A DNA stretch of 64,000 bases, taken from Bacteroidales bacterium (GTDB lineage: Bacteria > Bacteroidota > Bacteroidia > Bacteroidales > GCA-2748055). Shown here in pieces: positions 39,247 to 49,056 of this stretch. Position 1 is the stretch's first letter; the number at the start of each line of letters is the position of its first letter. The notes under the pieces are model-generated. The model saw only the letters and a program-made list of their open reading frames with translations. It ran no database searches and had not been told where the DNA came from. The translations under genes were made by a program, and so were the position numbers. The stretch lies in the NCBI GenBank assembly GCA_021740585.1, contig JAIOZM010000002.1:31989-95988 (forward strand), read 5' to 3'.

Positions 39247-40044
39247 ATGGACAATAAGCCTCCCTTCAAGCAGATATTTAGTAATTTTACAAAAAAGTTT
39301 TTTATGATATTTTTCGAACAATTAGGGAAATTCTTTTTATTGCTGACAAAAGTTTTTGCCAAACCTGAGAAATACAGGATTTATTACAAACAAACTTTAC
39401 GCGAAATTGAGAGCCTTGGTATCAATTCATTCGGTATAGTTGTAATTGTATCAGTATTTGTGGGCGCAGTTATCACCATACAAACCAATTACAATATCGA
39501 AAATCCTCTCTTACCCAGCTATTTGGTTGGAGTAACAGTTCGCGACTCTCTGTTGCTTGAATTTTCTTCGACTATGGTTGCTTTAATTCTTGCAGGAAAA
39601 ATTGGATCCAGTATTTCTTCTGAAATTGGTACAATGAGAGTTTCTGAGCAAATCGATGCTCTGGAAATTATGGGGGTTAACTCTGCAAGTTTTCTGATTC
39701 TTCCGAAAATAATAGCCGCTGTTTTTTTCTTCCCCATCCTCTCTCTTCTTAGCATGTTTGTTGGGATTTTTGGAGGATACCTCATCTGTGTAATTGCAGA
39801 CGTGGTTCCGCCATCAGATTATATATATGGTATCCAATATGCTTTTTATCCGCATTACATTAGCTATGCAATAACCAAAGTTGTCTTTTATGCCTTTATA
39901 ATTGTTACCGTATCGTCTTTCCATGGATATTATGCAAGTGGTGGCGCACTCGAAGTGGGAAGATCAAGTACCAAAGCAGTTGTTCACAGCAGTATCTTAG
40001 TATTACTGGCCAATCTTGTCCTCACCAAATTAATTCTGTCATGA
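39247..40044 (+). CDS. mlaE: MlaE-family ABC transporter permease
   Basis: 265 aa; FVGAVITIQTNYN, LILAGKIGSSISSEIGTMRVSEQIDALEIMGVNSASFLILPKI. Confidence 0.92.
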   Translation: MDNKPPFKQIFSNFTKKFFMIFFEQLGKFFLLLTKVFAKPEKYRIYYKQTLREIESLGINSFGIVVIVSVFVGAVITIQTNYNIENPLLPSYLVGVTVRDSLLLEFSSTMVALILAGKIGSSISSEIGTMRVSEQIDALEIMGVNSASFLILPKIIAAVFFFPILSLLSMFVGIFGGYLICVIADVVPPSDYIYGIQYAFYPHYISYAITKVVFYAFIIVTVSSFHGYYASGGALEVGRSSTKAVVHSSILVLLANLVLTKLILS

Positions 40045-40790
40045 TAGAGGTAAAGAACGTTTCAAAAAGGTTTGGAGACACCATTGTTCTGGATAATGTA
40101 TCGGTAAACTTCGAGCAGGGTAAGACCAATCTCATTATTGGACAAAGTGGTTCAGGAAAAACGGTTTTGCTTAAATCAATTGTCGGGTTACATGATATTG
40201 ATGAAGGTGAAATCTGGTTTAGTCACAGGCATTTTAACGCATTAGGCTTCAAGGAAAGAAAAGAAATACGAAAGGAAATCGGTATGCTATTTCAGGGAGC
40301 CGCCCTGTTTGATTCTTCAACAGTAGAGCAAAATGTAATGTTCCCATTGGATATGTTCACAGATAAAAGCTATGAGGAAAAACTGGAAAGAGTGAATTTT
40401 TGCTTAAAAAGAGTGAATATTGAAAATAGTAACGGTCTTTTCCCTGCCGAGTTGAGTGGGGGAATGAAGAAAAGAGTTGGAATAGCCCGCGCCATTGCTC
40501 TTAACCCTATGTATCTCTTTTGCGATGAGCCTAATTCAGGCCTTGATCCTAAAACCGGAATCCTCATCGATAATCTGATTAAAGAGATCACAGAAGAATA
40601 CAATATCACAACCATCGTTAATACCCACGATATGAATTCTGTGGTTGAAATTGGAGATAAAGTAATCTTTATTTATGCCGGCGCTAAGTTATGGGAGGGA
40701 ACAAAGGAGGAGATAATGCATACTGAGAATAAGGAATTAAACGATTTCGTTTTTGCTACTTCACTAGCTCAGAAATTAAAAAAACAATAG
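40041..40790 (+). CDS. mlaF: MlaF-type ABC transporter ATP-binding protein
   Basis: 249 aa; IIGQSGSGKTVLLKSIVGLHDIDEGEIWF, ELSGGMKKRVGIARAIALNPMYLFCDEPNSGLDP; overlaps mlaE by 4 nt. Confidence 0.93.
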   Translation: MIEVKNVSKRFGDTIVLDNVSVNFEQGKTNLIIGQSGSGKTVLLKSIVGLHDIDEGEIWFSHRHFNALGFKERKEIRKEIGMLFQGAALFDSSTVEQNVMFPLDMFTDKSYEEKLERVNFCLKRVNIENSNGLFPAELSGGMKKRVGIARAIALNPMYLFCDEPNSGLDPKTGILIDNLIKEITEEYNITTIVNTHDMNSVVEIGDKVIFIYAGAKLWEGTKEEIMHTENKELNDFVFATSLAQKLKKQ

Positions 40791-40797
40791 GAATCTG

Positions 40798-41340
40798 ATG
40801 GCCAGACTTCATACTTTCATTATCACTGGAGATGTAGAAGGTGGGAAAAGCCTTTTTTTAAAAGATCTCTCAGAATTTCTAATCCTTTTTGAAAAGAGCC
40901 TGTGCGGTTTTATCAGCCGGGGACAGTTTAATTCTGAAGGACAAAAAGATTTTATCTTAAAAGATATAGCTTCTGATACTGAAATACATCTTGCCAGTAG
41001 AAATGAAATACCTTCCTACCTGCATTTTGGAAATTTCTATTTTAATCCTGTTGCTCTTGAAACAGGAAACCATATTATTCAAACAGCCATCACCTCAGGA
41101 GCAAAAATTTTAATTATTGATGAGATTGGCCCACTCGAACTTGCCGAAGAAATATGGTATAACAGCTTTTGTAAAGCTCTCGCAAATTATAATGGAATCC
41201 TGATTTTTAGCACACGACAACGTTTAATTAACGCGGTGGTAGATAAATTTCATATCAAAGAAGCTTATATTGAAAACATTGAACGAACAAGTGCCAGAAA
41301 AATTGGCGAAGCTATTCAAAGTCTATTAAATACAATATAA
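40798..41340 (+). CDS. THEP1/NTPase_1-like nucleoside-triphosphatase
   Basis: 180 aa; Walker A GDVEGGKS, Walker B-like KILIIDEIGPLEL characteristic of NTPase_1. Confidence 0.75.
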   Translation: MARLHTFIITGDVEGGKSLFLKDLSEFLILFEKSLCGFISRGQFNSEGQKDFILKDIASDTEIHLASRNEIPSYLHFGNFYFNPVALETGNHIIQTAITSGAKILIIDEIGPLELAEEIWYNSFCKALANYNGILIFSTRQRLINAVVDKFHIKEAYIENIERTSARKIGEAIQSLLNTI

Positions 41341-41462: not shown

Positions 41463-42047
41463 ATGGATAAAAAAATAAGTGGTATATTACTCGCAGGTGG
41501 GAAAAGCACGAGAATGGGCGAGGATAAAGCTTTTATGAATTATTTGGGAAAAGATTTGTTTCGATATCCACTTGAAATACTGGAGCAATTCTGCGACGAC
41601 ATACTAATTAGCTCGTCAAATCCCCTTTTTTTAGAAACAAGACACCGGATTTATGCAGATGATATTCCGGGATTAGGCCCGATGGGTGGACTTTATACTT
41701 GTCTTAAAAAAATTAAAAATGAATACTCCATAGTTATAGGTTGTGATACACCTTTAATAGACAGTCGACTAATTTCTGATCTTATTAATAATATTGATCA
41801 ACATTCAATAATTGTTCCGCTAAACGACAAGGGATTTCCGGAACCTCTCGTCGGTATTTATAGAAAATCATGCAGCATTACTATTAATAAATGCATTGAA
41901 AACCAGAATTATAAAATGTCCGGCTTATTAAAACAAGAAGATACTCTTAGCCTTGAACTACCCTATCCGCATTCAGAATTAATCAGACTTTTTTCAAACA
42001 TAAATACTAAAAAAGATTTTCAATCTTTACATGGTGATGAAATTTAA
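41463..42047 (+). CDS. mobA: Molybdenum cofactor guanylyltransferase
   Basis: 194 aa; ISGILLAGGKSTRMGEDKAFMNYLGK, IYADDIPGLGPMGGLYTCL, GCDTPLI. Confidence 0.92.
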   Translation: MDKKISGILLAGGKSTRMGEDKAFMNYLGKDLFRYPLEILEQFCDDILISSSNPLFLETRHRIYADDIPGLGPMGGLYTCLKKIKNEYSIVIGCDTPLIDSRLISDLINNIDQHSIIVPLNDKGFPEPLVGIYRKSCSITINKCIENQNYKMSGLLKQEDTLSLELPYPHSELIRLFSNINTKKDFQSLHGDEI

Positions 42048-43239
42048 TAAAATTGAAAATATTCAACTTAGTGATTCCTGGTTAAAAGCCATTGTTATTG
42101 GAAGTCTGTGGGCTAGTTTTGAAATCATTGTGGGCAGTTTCATTCACAATTTACGCCTCCCCTTTGCCGGAACTTTTTTAAGCGCTTTTGCTGTAATATT
42201 TCTTATATCTTTCTACCAGATCTGGCCTGAAAAGTGGATCATCTTACGGGCAGGTATCATCTGTGCTCTTATGAAAAGCATATCTCCTTCAGCCGTAATA
42301 TTTGGTCCGATGATTGGAATCTTCTCAGAAGCTCTGATTCTTGAATTTACGATTATACTTTTAAGAAAAAACTTATTTTCCTATATGATTGGCGGGGGCC
42401 TTGCTGTTTTTAGTGCTTTACTGCATAAAGCTGTAAATCTAGTATTACTCTATAGCTTCGATCTGGTTAAAGTATATGTCAATTTGGTGAATTATGCTGC
42501 CGGTAAATTTAATCTGCCCCAAAGTTCGCCTCAGCAATTAATAATATTATTGTCGGGAATATATATTATTGCCGGAATATTATCTGCCATTTTAGGCTAC
42601 ATAATTGGGAAAAAAGCCTTAAAACGGAAACCTGAAAGAAAAGTGCACCGATTTGAAAATAATACCAAAGAAGAAAACAATCCCCAATCATATTTCTCCG
42701 GTATTCTTTTAATATTACATGTAGCCATGCTAATTCCGGGTCTGTGGTTTCTATCACAGAATTATAATTTCTTTCTTAAACTTTTAATTATATCCTCATA
42801 TTTATTATTCTGCTTACTGCGTTACAAAAATCTGATATACAGATTGTTAAAACCTCTTTTTTGGACTCAATTACTTATCATTCTTATTCTTGCAGCCCTG
42901 TTTCTTGAAAATTCAAAGCAGGATTTTTCATGGAGCTTTGCCTTATACTCCGGATTTACAATGGTGCTGAGGGCTCTTTTTGTAATAATCTGTTTTTCGG
43001 CAATAAGCAGAGAGATCGCAAATCCTGTGATTAAGAATTTTCTTCTTAAAAAAGGAAATGTTAGCATGAGAATATATTTTGCCCTTCAAACCGGATTTTT
43101 GGCTCTCCCCATAATGATAGAAAATTATTCTGAATTCAAATTCATTTATAAAAAACCACTGCATGCCTTAGTAAACATCGTTTCGGAAGCAGAAAATTGG
43201 CTTGAAAGCATAAAACACCACCAAGGAAGCAATTCATAA
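42031..43239 (+). CDS. Uncharacterised polytopic membrane protein; N-half ECF S-component-like, C-half EcfT/CbiQ-like
   Basis: 402 aa; overlaps the mobA 3' end by 17 nt. N-half GSLWASFEIIVGSFIHNLRLPFAGTFLSAFAVIFLI...RAGIICALMKSISPSAVIFGPMIGIFSEALILEF; C-half FTMVLRALFVIICFSAISREIANPVIKNFLLKKGNVSMRIYFALQTGFLALPIMIENY. Confidence 0.6.
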   Translation: MVMKFNKIENIQLSDSWLKAIVIGSLWASFEIIVGSFIHNLRLPFAGTFLSAFAVIFLISFYQIWPEKWIILRAGIICALMKSISPSAVIFGPMIGIFSEALILEFTIILLRKNLFSYMIGGGLAVFSALLHKAVNLVLLYSFDLVKVYVNLVNYAAGKFNLPQSSPQQLIILLSGIYIIAGILSAILGYIIGKKALKRKPERKVHRFENNTKEENNPQSYFSGILLILHVAMLIPGLWFLSQNYNFFLKLLIISSYLLFCLLRYKNLIYRLLKPLFWTQLLIILILAALFLENSKQDFSWSFALYSGFTMVLRALFVIICFSAISREIANPVIKNFLLKKGNVSMRIYFALQTGFLALPIMIENYSEFKFIYKKPLHALVNIVSEAENWLESIKHHQGSNS

Positions 43240-43410: not shown

Positions 43411-45648
43411 ATGGCAAACCGCAGACAGTTTTTAAAATACTCCGCTCTTGGTATTGGCGGAATGACTATTGGCCTAGGTGCATGCAAATACATAGATGAT
43501 TTCACTGAAATTAAAAATAACCCTGGCGCTCTTAATGTCAACCTTACCCGTACCCCAACCTATTGTGAAATTTGTTTCTGGCAATGTGCCGGTTGGGTTT
43601 ACAAAACGAAGGATGGTCAGATATGGAAAATTGTGGGAAACGATGATGATCAGCACAGTAACGGTCGTTTTTGTCCCCGGGGAACGGGCGGGGTAGGGAT
43701 GTATAATGATGAGGACAGACTTAAAACTCCATTAATACGAACCGGTGAAAGAGGCGAATTTAAGTTCCGCGAAGCTAGTTGGGATGAGGCCTTGGACCTC
43801 GTAGCAGAGAACATGAAAAAAATTGCCGCTGAACATGGCCCGGAATGCATAGCCCTGCTTACTCACGGTTCGGGTGGTAAGTTTTTTGGAGAGACTTTAA
43901 AAGCCTTTGGTTCAGACAATATTGCGGCTCCATCCTATGCACAATGCCGGGGACCTCGTGAAGTTGCATTCACAAATACTTTTGGCGAAGGAGTTGGTTC
44001 TCCTGAAAGAATAGATATCCGTGACACCAAGTGTTTGGTTCTAATAGGATCGCATTTGGGTGAAAATATGCACAACGGTCAGGTTCAGGAAATGTCTGCC
44101 GCTATTGATAAAGGTGCCTCCATTATAACAGTTGACCCAAGATTTTCGGTTGCTGCAGGGAAATCGAAATTCTGGCTGCCAATAAAACCTGCAACAGACC
44201 TGGCTCTTTTGCTTTCCTGGATTCATGTAATAATTTATGAAGATTGGTACGATAAAGAATATGTCGAGAAATATACTTATGGCTTTGAATTTCTCAAAGA
44301 GCATGTAAAAACAATGACTCCCGAATGGGCTTATGGAAAGACAACAATTCAGCCGGATATTATAAGAAAAACGGCGAAAGAAATGGTCAATGCAGCTCCA
44401 TCTGTCATTATACATCCCGGAAGACATGTTACCTGGTATGGTGATGATACACAGCGCATGAGAGCGGTAGCTATATTAAATGCCATTTTGGGTTCATGGG
44501 GGCGCAGAGGCGGTTATTATAATCCCTCAAAAATTAGTGTGCCAAATTATCCTCATCCTGAGTATCCAACGCCAACAAAAACCTGGAGAGATGCCTTCCC
44601 CGGGAAATATAATCTTGTTGATGAAACTCTGGCATCAGGAATTTGTGATGCAACTATTCCGTCCATAGACAGAGCCTGTAATTTTAAAATGTGGTTAGTA
44701 AATGGAACGAATCTGATAAATACACTTCCGGATAACGCAAAAACACTTAGGGCAATTGAAAATCTGGATTTTATCGCCGTTGTTGACACCATGCCAATGG
44801 AAATTGTCAGTTATGCCGATGTTGTTTTACCAGAGTGCACCTATCTTGAAAGATACGATACTCTCCGTGTAAGCCCCCATCGCAAACCATCCATTGCATT
44901 AAGAATGCCCGCAGTAGAGCCAAAATATAATACAAAACCTGCCTGGTGGATGGCAAAGCAACTTGCTGAAAAACTTGGGATTGGTCATTATATACCTTAT
45001 AATACTATAGAGGAAATGCTCGACTGGCAGCTTAAAGAAGCTGGGACATCACTCGAAGAAATGCAAAAAGTAGGAGTTAAAAACTATGAGCGTGATTGGG
45101 ATGACTTATTCTTTACTGAAAATGAAGATGTTGAATTTTTTACCAATACAGGAAAAATTGAATTGTATTCAACAGCATTTGCACAGGAAGGTTTTGATCC
45201 CATGCCAAATTATACAGAGCACCCTCAGCCACCTGAAGGATTTTATCGCCTGAACTATGGAAGAGCCCCAATGCATACTTTTTCCCGTACTGCAAACAAT
45301 CCAAATCTAACCGATTTGATGAGTGAAAATGTTTTATGGGTAAATCCAAAAGTAGCAAGTCTTTGGGGACTTAAGGAAGCACAGCCTGTCTGGTTGATCA
45401 ATCAGGATGGTATTGTGTCGACTTTCCCAATTAAGGTTAGGGTTACTGAAAGGATTCGGTGGGACTCGGTATATATGGTTCACGGTTTTGGACACAACCA
45501 GAAACAATTAACCCGTGCTTACGGGAAGGGAGCCAGTGATACCCAATTAATTAGTCACGTAATGGAAGACCCGATAATGGGAGGAACCGGAATGAGAGGA
45601 AATTTTGTTAGCTTTTTAACTGAAAAACCAGAGGAGGCCGTACTATGA
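43411..45648 (+). CDS. Molybdopterin-dependent oxidoreductase catalytic subunit (PsrA/PhsA-like polysulfide/thiosulfate reductase type), Tat substrate
   Basis: 745 aa; Tat motif NRRQFLKYSALGIGG; 4Fe-4S motif YCEICFWQCAG...FCPRG; YAQCRGPREVA candidate Mo-ligand Cys. Confidence 0.9.
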   Translation: MANRRQFLKYSALGIGGMTIGLGACKYIDDFTEIKNNPGALNVNLTRTPTYCEICFWQCAGWVYKTKDGQIWKIVGNDDDQHSNGRFCPRGTGGVGMYNDEDRLKTPLIRTGERGEFKFREASWDEALDLVAENMKKIAAEHGPECIALLTHGSGGKFFGETLKAFGSDNIAAPSYAQCRGPREVAFTNTFGEGVGSPERIDIRDTKCLVLIGSHLGENMHNGQVQEMSAAIDKGASIITVDPRFSVAAGKSKFWLPIKPATDLALLLSWIHVIIYEDWYDKEYVEKYTYGFEFLKEHVKTMTPEWAYGKTTIQPDIIRKTAKEMVNAAPSVIIHPGRHVTWYGDDTQRMRAVAILNAILGSWGRRGGYYNPSKISVPNYPHPEYPTPTKTWRDAFPGKYNLVDETLASGICDATIPSIDRACNFKMWLVNGTNLINTLPDNAKTLRAIENLDFIAVVDTMPMEIVSYADVVLPECTYLERYDTLRVSPHRKPSIALRMPAVEPKYNTKPAWWMAKQLAEKLGIGHYIPYNTIEEMLDWQLKEAGTSLEEMQKVGVKNYERDWDDLFFTENEDVEFFTNTGKIELYSTAFAQEGFDPMPNYTEHPQPPEGFYRLNYGRAPMHTFSRTANNPNLTDLMSENVLWVNPKVASLWGLKEAQPVWLINQDGIVSTFPIKVRVTERIRWDSVYMVHGFGHNQKQLTRAYGKGASDTQLISHVMEDPIMGGTGMRGNFVSFLTEKPEEAVL

Positions 45649-46178
45649 GATATGCAATGGCAATAGACACTAAAAAATGTGTTGGCTGCTCCGATTGTGT
45701 CGTAGCATGTCAGACCGAAAATAATGTCCCAATCGGATATTGCCGCGATTGGATTGTTGAAGTAAACGATGGTACCTATCCGCAACTGGAAATGGAAATC
45801 CGCTCCGAGCGATGCAATCATTGCGACAATTCACCCTGTGTGCGCTGCTGCCCTACCGGTGCCAGTCATATTGTTGAAGGAGGAATCGTACTGGTTACCG
45901 CCAATGAATGCATAGGCTGTGGAGCTTGCATTTCATCCTGCCCTTACGATGCTAGATATCCTCATCCTGACGGGCATGTTGACAAATGTACTTTTTGTTT
46001 TCACCGCGTGGGAAAAGGACAACAACCTGCATGTGTAGAAGTTTGCCCAACAAATTGTATGTATTTTGGAGATCTTGACGATCCAAAAAGCGAGGTTTCA
46101 GAGATTTTAAAAATCCGAAAATATAAAACGCTTATCCCTCAAGCCGGGACAGAGCCCCAGGTTTATTATCTCATTTAA
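45645..46178 (+). CDS. 4Fe-4S electron-transfer subunit (PsrB/NrfC-like)
   Basis: 177 aa; CVGCSDCVVACQTENNVP, CNHCDNSPCVRCCP, CIGCGACISSCPYDARY; overlaps the upstream gene by 4 nt. Confidence 0.93.
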   Translation: MRYAMAIDTKKCVGCSDCVVACQTENNVPIGYCRDWIVEVNDGTYPQLEMEIRSERCNHCDNSPCVRCCPTGASHIVEGGIVLVTANECIGCGACISSCPYDARYPHPDGHVDKCTFCFHRVGKGQQPACVEVCPTNCMYFGDLDDPKSEVSEILKIRKYKTLIPQAGTEPQVYYLI

Positions 46179-46195: not shown

Positions 46196-47137
46196 ATGAG
46201 AGAAGAAATTATTACAAGCGGCAGGATGAATGACAAAATTGATCCTTTCCTTAATATCTGGCACTGGGAGATCCCACTATATCTGTTTTTGGGAGGACTT
46301 GCGGCCGGTATTTTATTTTTTGCTGCCTTCTACAGCATTCGCGGAAAAGAAAAGGAGTTTCCATCCGCCATTGAGAAAGCTCCTTTAATTGTTCCGGCCT
46401 TATTAATTATTGGGTTAATCTCATTATTTTTAGACTTAAATCACAAACTCTATTTCTGGAGATTATACACAACTATTCGTTTAGAGTCACCAATGTCGTG
46501 GGGAGCCTGGGTGTTGATGATAATAACTCCTTTATCTTTTATCTGGGCTGCTATTCATTTAAAGAAAGTCTACCCTAACTTTAAATGGCCATTTCCCTGG
46601 CTTGATATAGTAGAGGAATTCTTTATAAAGTACAAAAAAGTGTTAGCCTGGAGTATGTTGGTATCGGCCCTTATTCTTGGTATGTACACCGGAATTCTCC
46701 TTTCTGCATTTAATGCACGTCCTCTGTGGAATACCTCTATATTGGGACCACTGTTTCTCGTATCCGGATTATCGACCGGTGCCGCCACCAATATACTGTT
46801 TGCTAAAACTCACCTGGAAAAGAAAACATTCTCTACCATTGACCTGGCTCTGATTGGAATAGAACTTTTTCTGATTGTTCACCTTTTCATGGGTCTTCTG
46901 GCAAGCACTCAGGTACAAATTGAGGCTGCAAACCTTTTTCTGGGCGGACCATATACAGCGGTATTCTGGGTATTGGTAGTGCTAATTGGAATGATAATAC
47001 CCGCTGTTATAGAAATACTTGAACTCTGGAAGTTTAAAATTCCTCTGTTAATACCTGCAATAATGGTATTATTTGGTGGGGTGTTGCTTAGATTTATTAT
47101 TACTTTTGCCGGCCAAACCAGCAGATGGCTATATTGA
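46196..47137 (+). CDS. nrfD: NrfD/PsrC-type quinol-interacting membrane subunit
   Basis: 313 aa polytopic; WHWEIPLYLFLGGLAAGILFFAAFYSI. Confidence 0.93.
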   Translation: MREEIITSGRMNDKIDPFLNIWHWEIPLYLFLGGLAAGILFFAAFYSIRGKEKEFPSAIEKAPLIVPALLIIGLISLFLDLNHKLYFWRLYTTIRLESPMSWGAWVLMIITPLSFIWAAIHLKKVYPNFKWPFPWLDIVEEFFIKYKKVLAWSMLVSALILGMYTGILLSAFNARPLWNTSILGPLFLVSGLSTGAATNILFAKTHLEKKTFSTIDLALIGIELFLIVHLFMGLLASTQVQIEAANLFLGGPYTAVFWVLVVLIGMIIPAVIEILELWKFKIPLLIPAIMVLFGGVLLRFIITFAGQTSRWLY

Positions 47138-47159
47138 CAATTTGTTTAAAATCAGTTAT

Positions 47160-47687
47160 ATGACAACAACTAAATTAAAATCAAAAACCTATATGAATCC
47201 ATACCTGGCAGGAGTTTTGCTGGGTTTAGTTTTACTAACCGCCAACTTTATCTCCGGGAGGGGTCTTGGAGCAAGTGGTGCTGTTAAAAGTGTTATTGTA
47301 ACAGCTGTTGATGCTGTTGCCCCGGGTCATGCAGAAAATGCTCCATTTTATGTTGAATATCTTGAAGCTCATCCAAAACCTATGAAATCATGGTTGGTTT
47401 TTGAAATGCTTGGCGTATTGGTTGGTGGATTCCTCTCCGGTGCCCTCGCAGGAAGATTAAAGTTTAAGGTTGAACATTCTCCAAAAATCACTTCGAGAAG
47501 AAGACTTATTTTTGCTTTAGCAGGAGGTATTCTTTTCGGTTTTGGATCCCAACTGGGACGTGGATGCACAAGCGGATCTGCCCTTAGCGGAATGGCTGTA
47601 TTATCTTTGGGAGGAATAATAACTATGGCTGCCATATTTGGAACTGGCTATGCACTGGCATATTTTGTTCGAAAAAACTGGATTTGA
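47160..47687 (+). CDS. YeeE/YedE-family sulfur transport protein, half 1
   Basis: GSQLGRGCTSGSALSGMAVLSLGGIITMAAIFGTGY; ATG at 47160 preferred over the track start 47073 inside nrfD. Confidence 0.88.
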   Translation: MTTTKLKSKTYMNPYLAGVLLGLVLLTANFISGRGLGASGAVKSVIVTAVDAVAPGHAENAPFYVEYLEAHPKPMKSWLVFEMLGVLVGGFLSGALAGRLKFKVEHSPKITSRRRLIFALAGGILFGFGSQLGRGCTSGSALSGMAVLSLGGIITMAAIFGTGYALAYFVRKNWI

Positions 47688-47771
47688 GAAATTCATATCC
47701 CGAACATTAGATTTATTACAAAAATAGATGCAGAATTAAAAAGAAACTGATAAAATTTAAAATATACTAAA

Positions 47772-48362
47772 ATGGGTCCTTTAGCAGCAAACGAAATAAT
47801 TTCACAAGATACTAATCTGATCTTTGCCTTTCTTATTGGTATAGGTTTCGGATTTGTTTTAGAAGGTGCCGGCTTTTCATCGAGTCGTAAGCTGGCAGGC
47901 GTGTTTTACGGTTACGACACCGTTGTGCTTAAAGTGTTTTTTACAGCAGGAATTACCGCTATGATAGGCTTATTGTTTTTCAGTCTTTTTGGCTGGATAG
48001 ATCTAAGTTTAATATATATTAATCCCACATTCCTTTATTCAGCCATTGCCGGCGGTGTAATCATGGGGGCCGGATTTATTCTTGGAGGTTTCTGTCCCGG
48101 CACAAGTTTTTGTGCTGCTTCCATTGGTAAAATTGATGCCTTAGTATTTATTGGCGGACTCTTAATCGGAATATTAATCTTTGGCGAAGGATATGCACTC
48201 TGGGAAGGTTTTTATAATGCTAAATTTTTAGGCATACCAAAAATCAGCGAGTCCCTTGGTCTTAAAGATGGTCTGATGGCTCTAATTATCGTGCTGGTTG
48301 CATTCGCCATGTTCTGGGTTGGAGAATGGGCTGAAAAGAAATTTCCAAGAGAAGAATATTAA
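47772..48362 (+). CDS. YeeE/YedE-family sulfur transport protein, half 2
   Basis: 196 aa; FVLEGAGFSSSRKLAGVFYGYD, MGAGFILGGFCPGTSFCAASIGKIDALVFIGG. Confidence 0.9.
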   Translation: MGPLAANEIISQDTNLIFAFLIGIGFGFVLEGAGFSSSRKLAGVFYGYDTVVLKVFFTAGITAMIGLLFFSLFGWIDLSLIYINPTFLYSAIAGGVIMGAGFILGGFCPGTSFCAASIGKIDALVFIGGLLIGILIFGEGYALWEGFYNAKFLGIPKISESLGLKDGLMALIIVLVAFAMFWVGEWAEKKFPREEY

Positions 48363-48438
48363 AATATTATTTAAGCTTACTATTATTTTTTAATTTTGAG
48401 CATTGCATTTTTATGCAGGTTCACAAAAAATAAAAATT

Positions 48439-49056
48439 ATGAATTCAAGAATTTTACTGGCTGGTTTCCTTATCCCGATGGCAATGATTATCGCAGCCGT
48501 GCCATCGAATAAAACAAAACAATATAAACTCACGGCTAACCAACTCCTTCAGGAAGCTGTAAGCTACGAGCCTTATATTCATCCTGATAATGTAGCTGAT
48601 ATGCTGGTTCAACAGGATCCTTCACTTCAATTGATCGATGTGCGCACACCGGATGAATTTGATAAATTCAGTTTGCCGGGAGCCATAAACATCCCACTTT
48701 CCGAACTACTCGCCGACCAATATGTAGACCTGCTTGATCAGGGGGTTAAGATGAATGTTTTTTATTCTAATGGCACCTTGAAATCGAATGAAGCTTGGAT
48801 GATTACAAGGCAATTAGGTTATTCTAATAATTATGTCCTTCAGGGTGGATTAAATTACTGGGCAGAAACCATAATTAATCCTGTTCCCCCAGCTTCAACA
48901 AGTCCTGATGAAGAAATTGCCAAATACAATTTCCGCAAAGGTGCTTCAATGGCTTTGGGTGGTGATGTAGATACAAAATCGGCTGAAACTGCTGTACCTG
49001 CTGTACCAGTAATCACAGCCAAGCAAGCTAAAAAAAGAGTTGCTGGTGGTTGCTAG
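48439..49056 (+). CDS. Exported/membrane-anchored rhodanese-like domain protein ending in Gly-Gly-Cys
   Basis: LIDVRTPDEFDKFSLPGAINIPLSEL, MNVFYSNGTLKSNEAWMITRQLGYSNNYVLQGGLNYW, C-terminus AKKRVAGGC; start ATG 48439 preferred. Confidence 0.88.
   Translation: MNSRILLAGFLIPMAMIIAAVPSNKTKQYKLTANQLLQEAVSYEPYIHPDNVADMLVQQDPSLQLIDVRTPDEFDKFSLPGAINIPLSELLADQYVDLLDQGVKMNVFYSNGTLKSNEAWMITRQLGYSNNYVLQGGLNYWAETIINPVPPASTSPDEEIAKYNFRKGASMALGGDVDTKSAETAVPAVPVITAKQAKKRVAGGC

Follow-up and report, generated by a model that had tools for sequence, protein, structure and literature searches.

A membrane protein of 402 amino acids, encoded in a stretch of 64,000 nucleotides from a Bacteroidales bacterium (the window), is proposed to unite in one chain the two membrane modules of an ECF-like importer, one for substrate binding (S) and one for energy coupling (T); the motor would be a THEP1-type NTPase encoded two genes upstream, in place of an ABC ATPase. 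In several relatives, the gene of a dedicated TonB-dependent receptor lies next to the system, and such a receptor would bring the substrate through the outer membrane. At the inner membrane, the substrate would be bound by the S module and then released into the cytoplasm by the energy of NTP hydrolysis, relayed by the T module. Most likely, it would be molybdopterin or the complete molybdenum cofactor (Moco), to which MobA, whose reading frame overlaps that of the membrane protein, would afterwards attach GMP to give the MGD form for the adjacent Psr-type reductase. This explanation as a whole, with its chief weight on the importer and the cofactor, is judged to be finely balanced.

The first-pass annotation of this DNA had described a 402-codon ORF with two hydrophobic halves and a charged linker, starting inside the stop region of mobA and followed by a molybdoenzyme gene, and each of these features is present in the window (Table 1). 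The ORF begins with ATG, has a second in-frame ATG at 42037, and overlaps mobA, whose TAA stop codon occupies 42045–42047, by 17 nt. The same type of junction recurs in relatives, with an overlap in 35 of the 49 clean adjacent pairs from the named loci, and with either an overlap or a gap of at most 20 nt in 42 of the 49. The catalytic subunit of the downstream Mo-bisPGD oxidoreductase has a TAT-type start, its best NCBIfam match is PhsA, and it is the proposed client enzyme of the membrane system.

Table 1. Features around the 402-codon ORF, in positions of the window.
Feature	Position	Strand	Evidence or remark
MlaE/MlaF-like ABC pair	39247–40790		directly upstream of the NTPase gene
THEP1/NTPase_1-type P-loop NTPase, 180 aa, proposed motor	40798–41340	+	PF03266 E=5.5e-12
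mobA, Mo-cofactor guanylyltransferase	41463–42047	+	PF12804 E=1.9e-31; NF001457 MobA E=1.2e-36
S+T membrane protein (proposed), 402 aa	42031–43239	+	ORF, homologues, AlphaFold2 model
S-like module, residues 15–198	42073–42624	+	30-member alignment, separate S genes, PF09819/PF09605 matches
Charged linker, residues 199–223 (approximate)	42625–42699	+	sequence; low-confidence stretch of the model
T-like module, residues 224–401	42700–43233	+	alignment; separate T genes match TIGR02454 ECF_T_CbiQ
Mo-bisPGD oxidoreductase, PhsA/PsrA-like catalytic subunit	43411–45648	+	PF00384, PF01568, PF04879; NF012032 PhsA E=6e-140
4Fe-4S subunit of the oxidoreductase	45645–46178	+	PF13247
NrfD/PsrC-type membrane subunit of the oxidoreductase	46196–47137	+	PF03916 E=4.7e-47

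The 402-aa protein matches no Pfam or NCBIfam model above the cut-off, and a sequence search of the PDB found nothing; matches to PRIMA1 (PF16101, E=0.001) and DUF2371 lie far below the cut-off, fall on a hydrophobic helix, and were set aside as spurious. Homologues were found in 29 of 61 related genomes, with identities of 32–73%, and a scan of GTDB contigs confirmed 505 stretches encoding homologues, of which the best 80 were kept, mostly from Bacteroidales/Bacteroidetes MAGs with a few labelled Chlorobiota. This recurrence indicates that the ORF is not a product of chance.

A phylum-wide search with a sequence alignment led to distant loci in which the two halves are separate genes (matches of E approximately 1e-4 to 1e-5 on the P-loop of unrelated NTPases were not counted as S-positive). 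Five distant operons (L153, L154, L155, L165, and L167) encode S proteins of 198–217 aa and T proteins of 181–202 aa in the order S–T–TonB receptor, with the NTPase at the end in L153–L155. These split operons sit behind genes for nitrate reductases of the Nap or Nar type, NapA-like by NCBIfam in L165 and assigned by eye in the other four. In addition, proteins fused in the order NTPase–S–(T) are encoded at L156–L158. Taken together, the fused protein, the separate genes, and the reversed fusion show that S, T, and the NTPase belong to a single machine whose parts can be rearranged and exchanged. Proteins of 347–371 aa at L159–L168 have an S domain followed by a C-terminal half that the T profile misses; this half has a conserved arginine and is probably a diverged T.

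The likeness to ECF components in sequence consists of weak matches of separate S and T proteins to ECF models, all below the cut-offs. Four separate T proteins match TIGR02454 (ECF_T_CbiQ) with E values of 2.9e-5, 8.1e-5, 6.2e-5, and 1.8e-3, below its cut-off of 111.8 bits. Separate S proteins match PF09819, the YkoE family, at E=3.7e-4 and 1.7e-3, and PF09605, a putative ECF S family, at E=0.007–0.016, all below the gathering scores. YkoE has been described as an ECF S component (PMC5037267). The AlphaFold2 model of the 402-aa protein (pLDDT 86.6, pTM 0.86) has six main helices and one extra helix in the S module (S components such as RibU and YkoE have approximately six), and four long hydrophobic helices followed by amphipathic helices in the T module. 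Profile searches of the PDB with S and T found nothing, and Foldseek with the membrane models of the 402-aa protein and of a fused relative found no significant similarity to ECF S or EcfT; the only alignments of the former, of the MFS type with TM below 0.2, were dismissed as noise.

Across 30 diverse members, the invariant residues of S are E31, G35, P44, G47, and G182 in the numbering of the window protein, and W27, L38, H39, K82, and G142 are near-invariant; E31, H39, and K82 may be substrate contacts. The T alignment has just two invariant positions, G308 and R314, with P360 near-invariant, and no conserved X-R-X motif, of which two are expected at the coupling-helix ends in EcfT. Two X-R-X motifs at these positions are a defining feature of T components and couple them to the ABC subunits (PMC6828968), so their lack of conservation fits a motor other than an ABC ATPase. 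The S+T reading of the first-pass annotation thus holds in outline, with its two halves borne out by the separate S and T genes of relatives and by weak but consistent matches to ECF models, while neither Foldseek nor the PDB profiles confirmed the fold. The resemblance of S and T to ECF proteins is consistent and falls short of proof, and an ECF-like importer architecture is regarded as likely.

The partner NTPase of the window scores 46.3 bits against PF03266 (cut-off 23.9), and its motifs are intact, with a Walker A of GDVEGGKS and a DEIG. In many distant relatives, the ORF is approximately 570–600 aa long and carries a C-terminal P-loop domain that belongs to Pfam NTPase_1, the THEP1 family. 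These fused domains score 45–75 bits against the same cut-off (74.8 in L041 and 50.2 in L046) and, as in L013, L018, and L028, are joined in frame right behind the T helices. In the 80 named loci, the NTPase is fused in 13, lies within 1.5 kb in 14, and lies within 9 kb in 7; it is thus fused or adjacent in 27 of the 80. Among the 61 genomes, an NTPase_1 gene is present in 28 of the 29 carriers vs. 7 of the 32 non-carriers (p=1.3e-9, a value that ignores shared ancestry). Of 80 NTPase domains, 77 retain Walker A and all 80 retain DE[LIVF][GS], and LSGG, from the ABC signature LSGGQ, occurs in just one of the 80 proteins.

In the AlphaFold2 model of the fused relative L125 (pLDDT 89.3, pTM 0.83), the NTPase part matched human NTPCR (2i3b, E=8e-6) and Aquifex THEP1 (1ye8, E=5.4e-5) by Foldseek, with a RecA-like fold and a target-normalised TM of 0.70. 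The domain is also weakly similar to MobB. By profile and predicted fold, the partner NTPase is a member of the THEP1/NTPCR family, and its service as the motor of the importer is considered fairly likely.

Nine TonB receptors are encoded next to the system or next to its NTPase (L153, L154, L155, L165, L167, L040, L045, L050, and L071). They form one family, with mutual scores of 190–1170 bits vs. at most 54 bits for the other receptors in the fetched loci, and their best NCBIfam models are heme and vitamin B12 receptors. The window itself encodes no TonB receptor of this family. The travelling of one receptor family with the system indicates that the latter is probably an importer, and the receptor link speaks for a substrate that is rather large or in short supply. 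At L071:609–9522, in a genome (G045) that is 99% complete, NarGHJI genes are followed by the receptor and the NTPase of the system, and no S or T gene was detected near them.

The link to molybdenum or pterin cofactors, which the first-pass annotation had drawn from the overlap with mobA and the molybdoenzyme gene downstream, is well supported by gene neighbours and by co-occurrence across genomes. In 51 of the 80 named loci, mobA adjoins the membrane gene. Genes for Psr-type reductases are found among the neighbours, together with a Dms-type enzyme at L053, a NarI gene beside the system of L043, and MoeA and MogA genes directly downstream in L048. Genes for ModE-type regulators lie at L040:12521–12865 and L045:13646–13993, beside the TonB receptor and the fused transporter; both regulators consist of the DNA-binding domain only, without the molybdate-binding domain. 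A gene for an S-only protein of 229 aa, with an NTPase_1 gene, is located beside xanthine dehydrogenase and XdhC genes (L066:8294–9633). The genome of this locus (G040) also carries an S+T protein elsewhere, and its single NTPase may serve both. Proteins of the DUF364/DUF4213 "heavy-metal chelation" type adjoin the fused form in L044, L045, L048, L052, L108, and L134 (identified by Pfam in L044, L048, and L052), and a role in handling the cofactor or metal after import is possible for them.

The same 61 genomes were scored for MoeA, MoaC, ModB, and the Mo-bisPGD enzyme domain. Neither MoaC nor MoeA was detected in 18 of the 29 carriers, including the genome of the window; six of these are at least 96% complete (G002, G008, G011, G016, G020, and G038), and all except G038 and G024 have the Mo-enzyme domain. 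Among relatives at least 90% complete that have a Mo enzyme and in which MoaC and MoeA were not detected, nine of ten carry the membrane protein, and the tenth is G045, where the NTPase gene lies together with those for the TonB receptor and nitrate reductase. Similarly, in the phylum sample, S was found in 8 of 18 genomes with a Mo enzyme and no MoeA vs. 7 of 156 with both (p=1e-5, again ignoring shared ancestry), and in two single-contig genomes, G184 and G192, Mo enzymes occur along with the system and neither MoaC nor MoeA was detected. In carriers that lack MoaC and MoeA, imported molybdate alone would be unusable by the known pathway, and molybdopterin or Moco would be needed. Approximately one-third of the carriers have MoaC as well as MoeA; the system thus extends beyond auxotrophs, and salvage would be supplementary in those with their own pathway.

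MoaE was dropped as a marker of auxotrophy because it is missing from most MoaC-positive relatives as well: among the 61 genomes, MoaE (PF02391) is absent in 13 of the 15 with MoaC. Molybdopterin synthase may therefore be non-canonical in these Bacteroidota, and since the group may replace known steps by substitutes, a missing canonical gene does not prove auxotrophy. Free Moco is very unstable, which makes its availability outside cells uncertain. Given an importer, molybdopterin or Moco is viewed as the somewhat favoured substrate.

The same S, T, and NTPase parts could instead import molybdate (or tungstate) and replace ModABC. The window's genome has no ModB match, none of the S-positive genomes in the phylum sample reaches the curated cut-off for ModB, and the ModE-type regulators of L040 and L045, the MoeA and MogA genes of L048, and the DUF364 neighbours would all suit a molybdate importer. 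However, with MoaC and MoeA both undetected in many carriers, the known route from molybdate to the cofactor would be blocked; the heme/B12-like receptor suggests a larger substrate, and Tup/Wtp-like permeases are also present in several carriers. Import of molybdate is therefore held to be rather unlikely, and a cofactor importer is preferred.

Two further explanations concern the machine itself. An ordinary ECF importer could draw on an ABC ATPase encoded elsewhere, leaving the NTPase as a regulator or a processor of the imported cofactor. Group II ECF systems do share their A components in trans (PMC5037267), and the window itself has an MlaE/MlaF-like ABC pair just upstream; this pair is absent from most loci and was rejected as the motor. 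The lack of a conserved X-R-X coupling motif in T, the NTPase fused directly behind the T helices in many relatives, and the retention of its active-site motifs in 77–80 of 80 domains argue against an ABC partner in trans, which is accordingly thought improbable. The membrane protein might also not be a transporter at all, acting instead as an inner-membrane factor that makes, holds, or inserts the Mo cofactor for exported reductases, with the NTPase as a chaperone-like switch. The overlap with mobA, the TAT-exported Mo enzymes close by, and the weak similarity of the NTPase domain to MobB, a cofactor adaptor, are in keeping with such a role, but the single co-travelling TonB receptor family, the matches to ECF S and T models, and the S-only form beside xanthine dehydrogenase genes speak against it, and it is deemed distinctly improbable. 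Overall, the first-pass annotation (S+T protein, Mo/pterin link) is partly supported; it had missed the NTPase component, the TonB receptor, and the evidence that favours the cofactor over molybdate as the probable substrate.

ECF transporters are defined by ABC motors. Group I members, such as YkoEDC for thiamine and CbiMNQO for cobalt, resemble the present system in combining S and T membrane modules with an NTPase, encoded in operons in a micronutrient context. They differ from it in that here a THEP1-type NTPase takes the place of the ABC ATPases, X-R-X is not conserved in T, S and T are often fused to each other and also to the NTPase, and a TonB receptor is part of the operon. As two ECF-defining features (the ABC partner and the X-R-X motifs) are missing, the system is not filed as an ECF member. 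THEP1 proteins include human NTPCR, and the partner NTPase belongs to THEP1/NTPCR (COG1618, PF03266) by profile and by predicted fold (2i3b and 1ye8); the described members are soluble and stand-alone (PMC1079890), whereas those found here are fused or linked to membrane transport modules. The ModABC importer shares the tie to molybdenum enzymes and ModE-type regulators, but the membrane protein here has no ModB match in Pfam or NCBIfam, the motor is different, and the system occurs in MoeA-less genomes. Heme and vitamin B12 (BtuB) receptors provide the best models for the co-travelling TonB receptors, which nevertheless are a family of their own, tied to S, T, and the NTPase and to molybdoenzyme operons.

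The way in which the Mo cofactor crosses membranes has been called unknown (PMC9793310), and at the time when the THEP1 structure was solved, its function in vivo was likewise unknown (PMC1079890). T11SS outer-membrane proteins, which are of a different kind from the proteins described here, have been suggested for molybdopterin uptake in Proteobacteria (PMC12282271). A literature search, with preprints and most subscription papers outside its scope, returned no paper describing the S/T/NTPase system or a bacterial Moco importer. An undescribed route of Moco uptake is put forward tentatively, in which a TonB receptor would serve the outer membrane and ECF-like S and T modules the inner one, with a non-ABC motor in the form of a THEP1-type NTPase. 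If true, Bacteroidota could run molybdoenzymes without making the cofactor, and many environmental members would depend on neighbours for it. The THEP1/NTPCR family would gain a role together with a physical and genetic partner, and an S/T pair driven by an NTPase of unrelated origin would mean that ECF motors are exchangeable, so that Moco membrane crossing, THEP1 function, and ECF motor exchange become testable together.

Other genes accompany the system at some loci. In one genus (L058–L070), the NTPase gene is found apart from the transporter, in a conserved cluster that also holds genes for a decarboxylase and a methyltransferase and an alcohol-dehydrogenase-like gene; genomes in which no transporter was found have this cluster too. 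QueA (approximately 410 aa), encoded beside the NTPase in several loci, was judged by eye to be a housekeeping protein and not a part of the system. In the window, the Psr-type cluster is followed by two half-size genes for YeeE/YedE-type sulfur transporters (47073–48362) and by a rhodanese gene (48403–49056), and this pair and the rhodanese gene are conserved with the Psr-type cluster in many loci.
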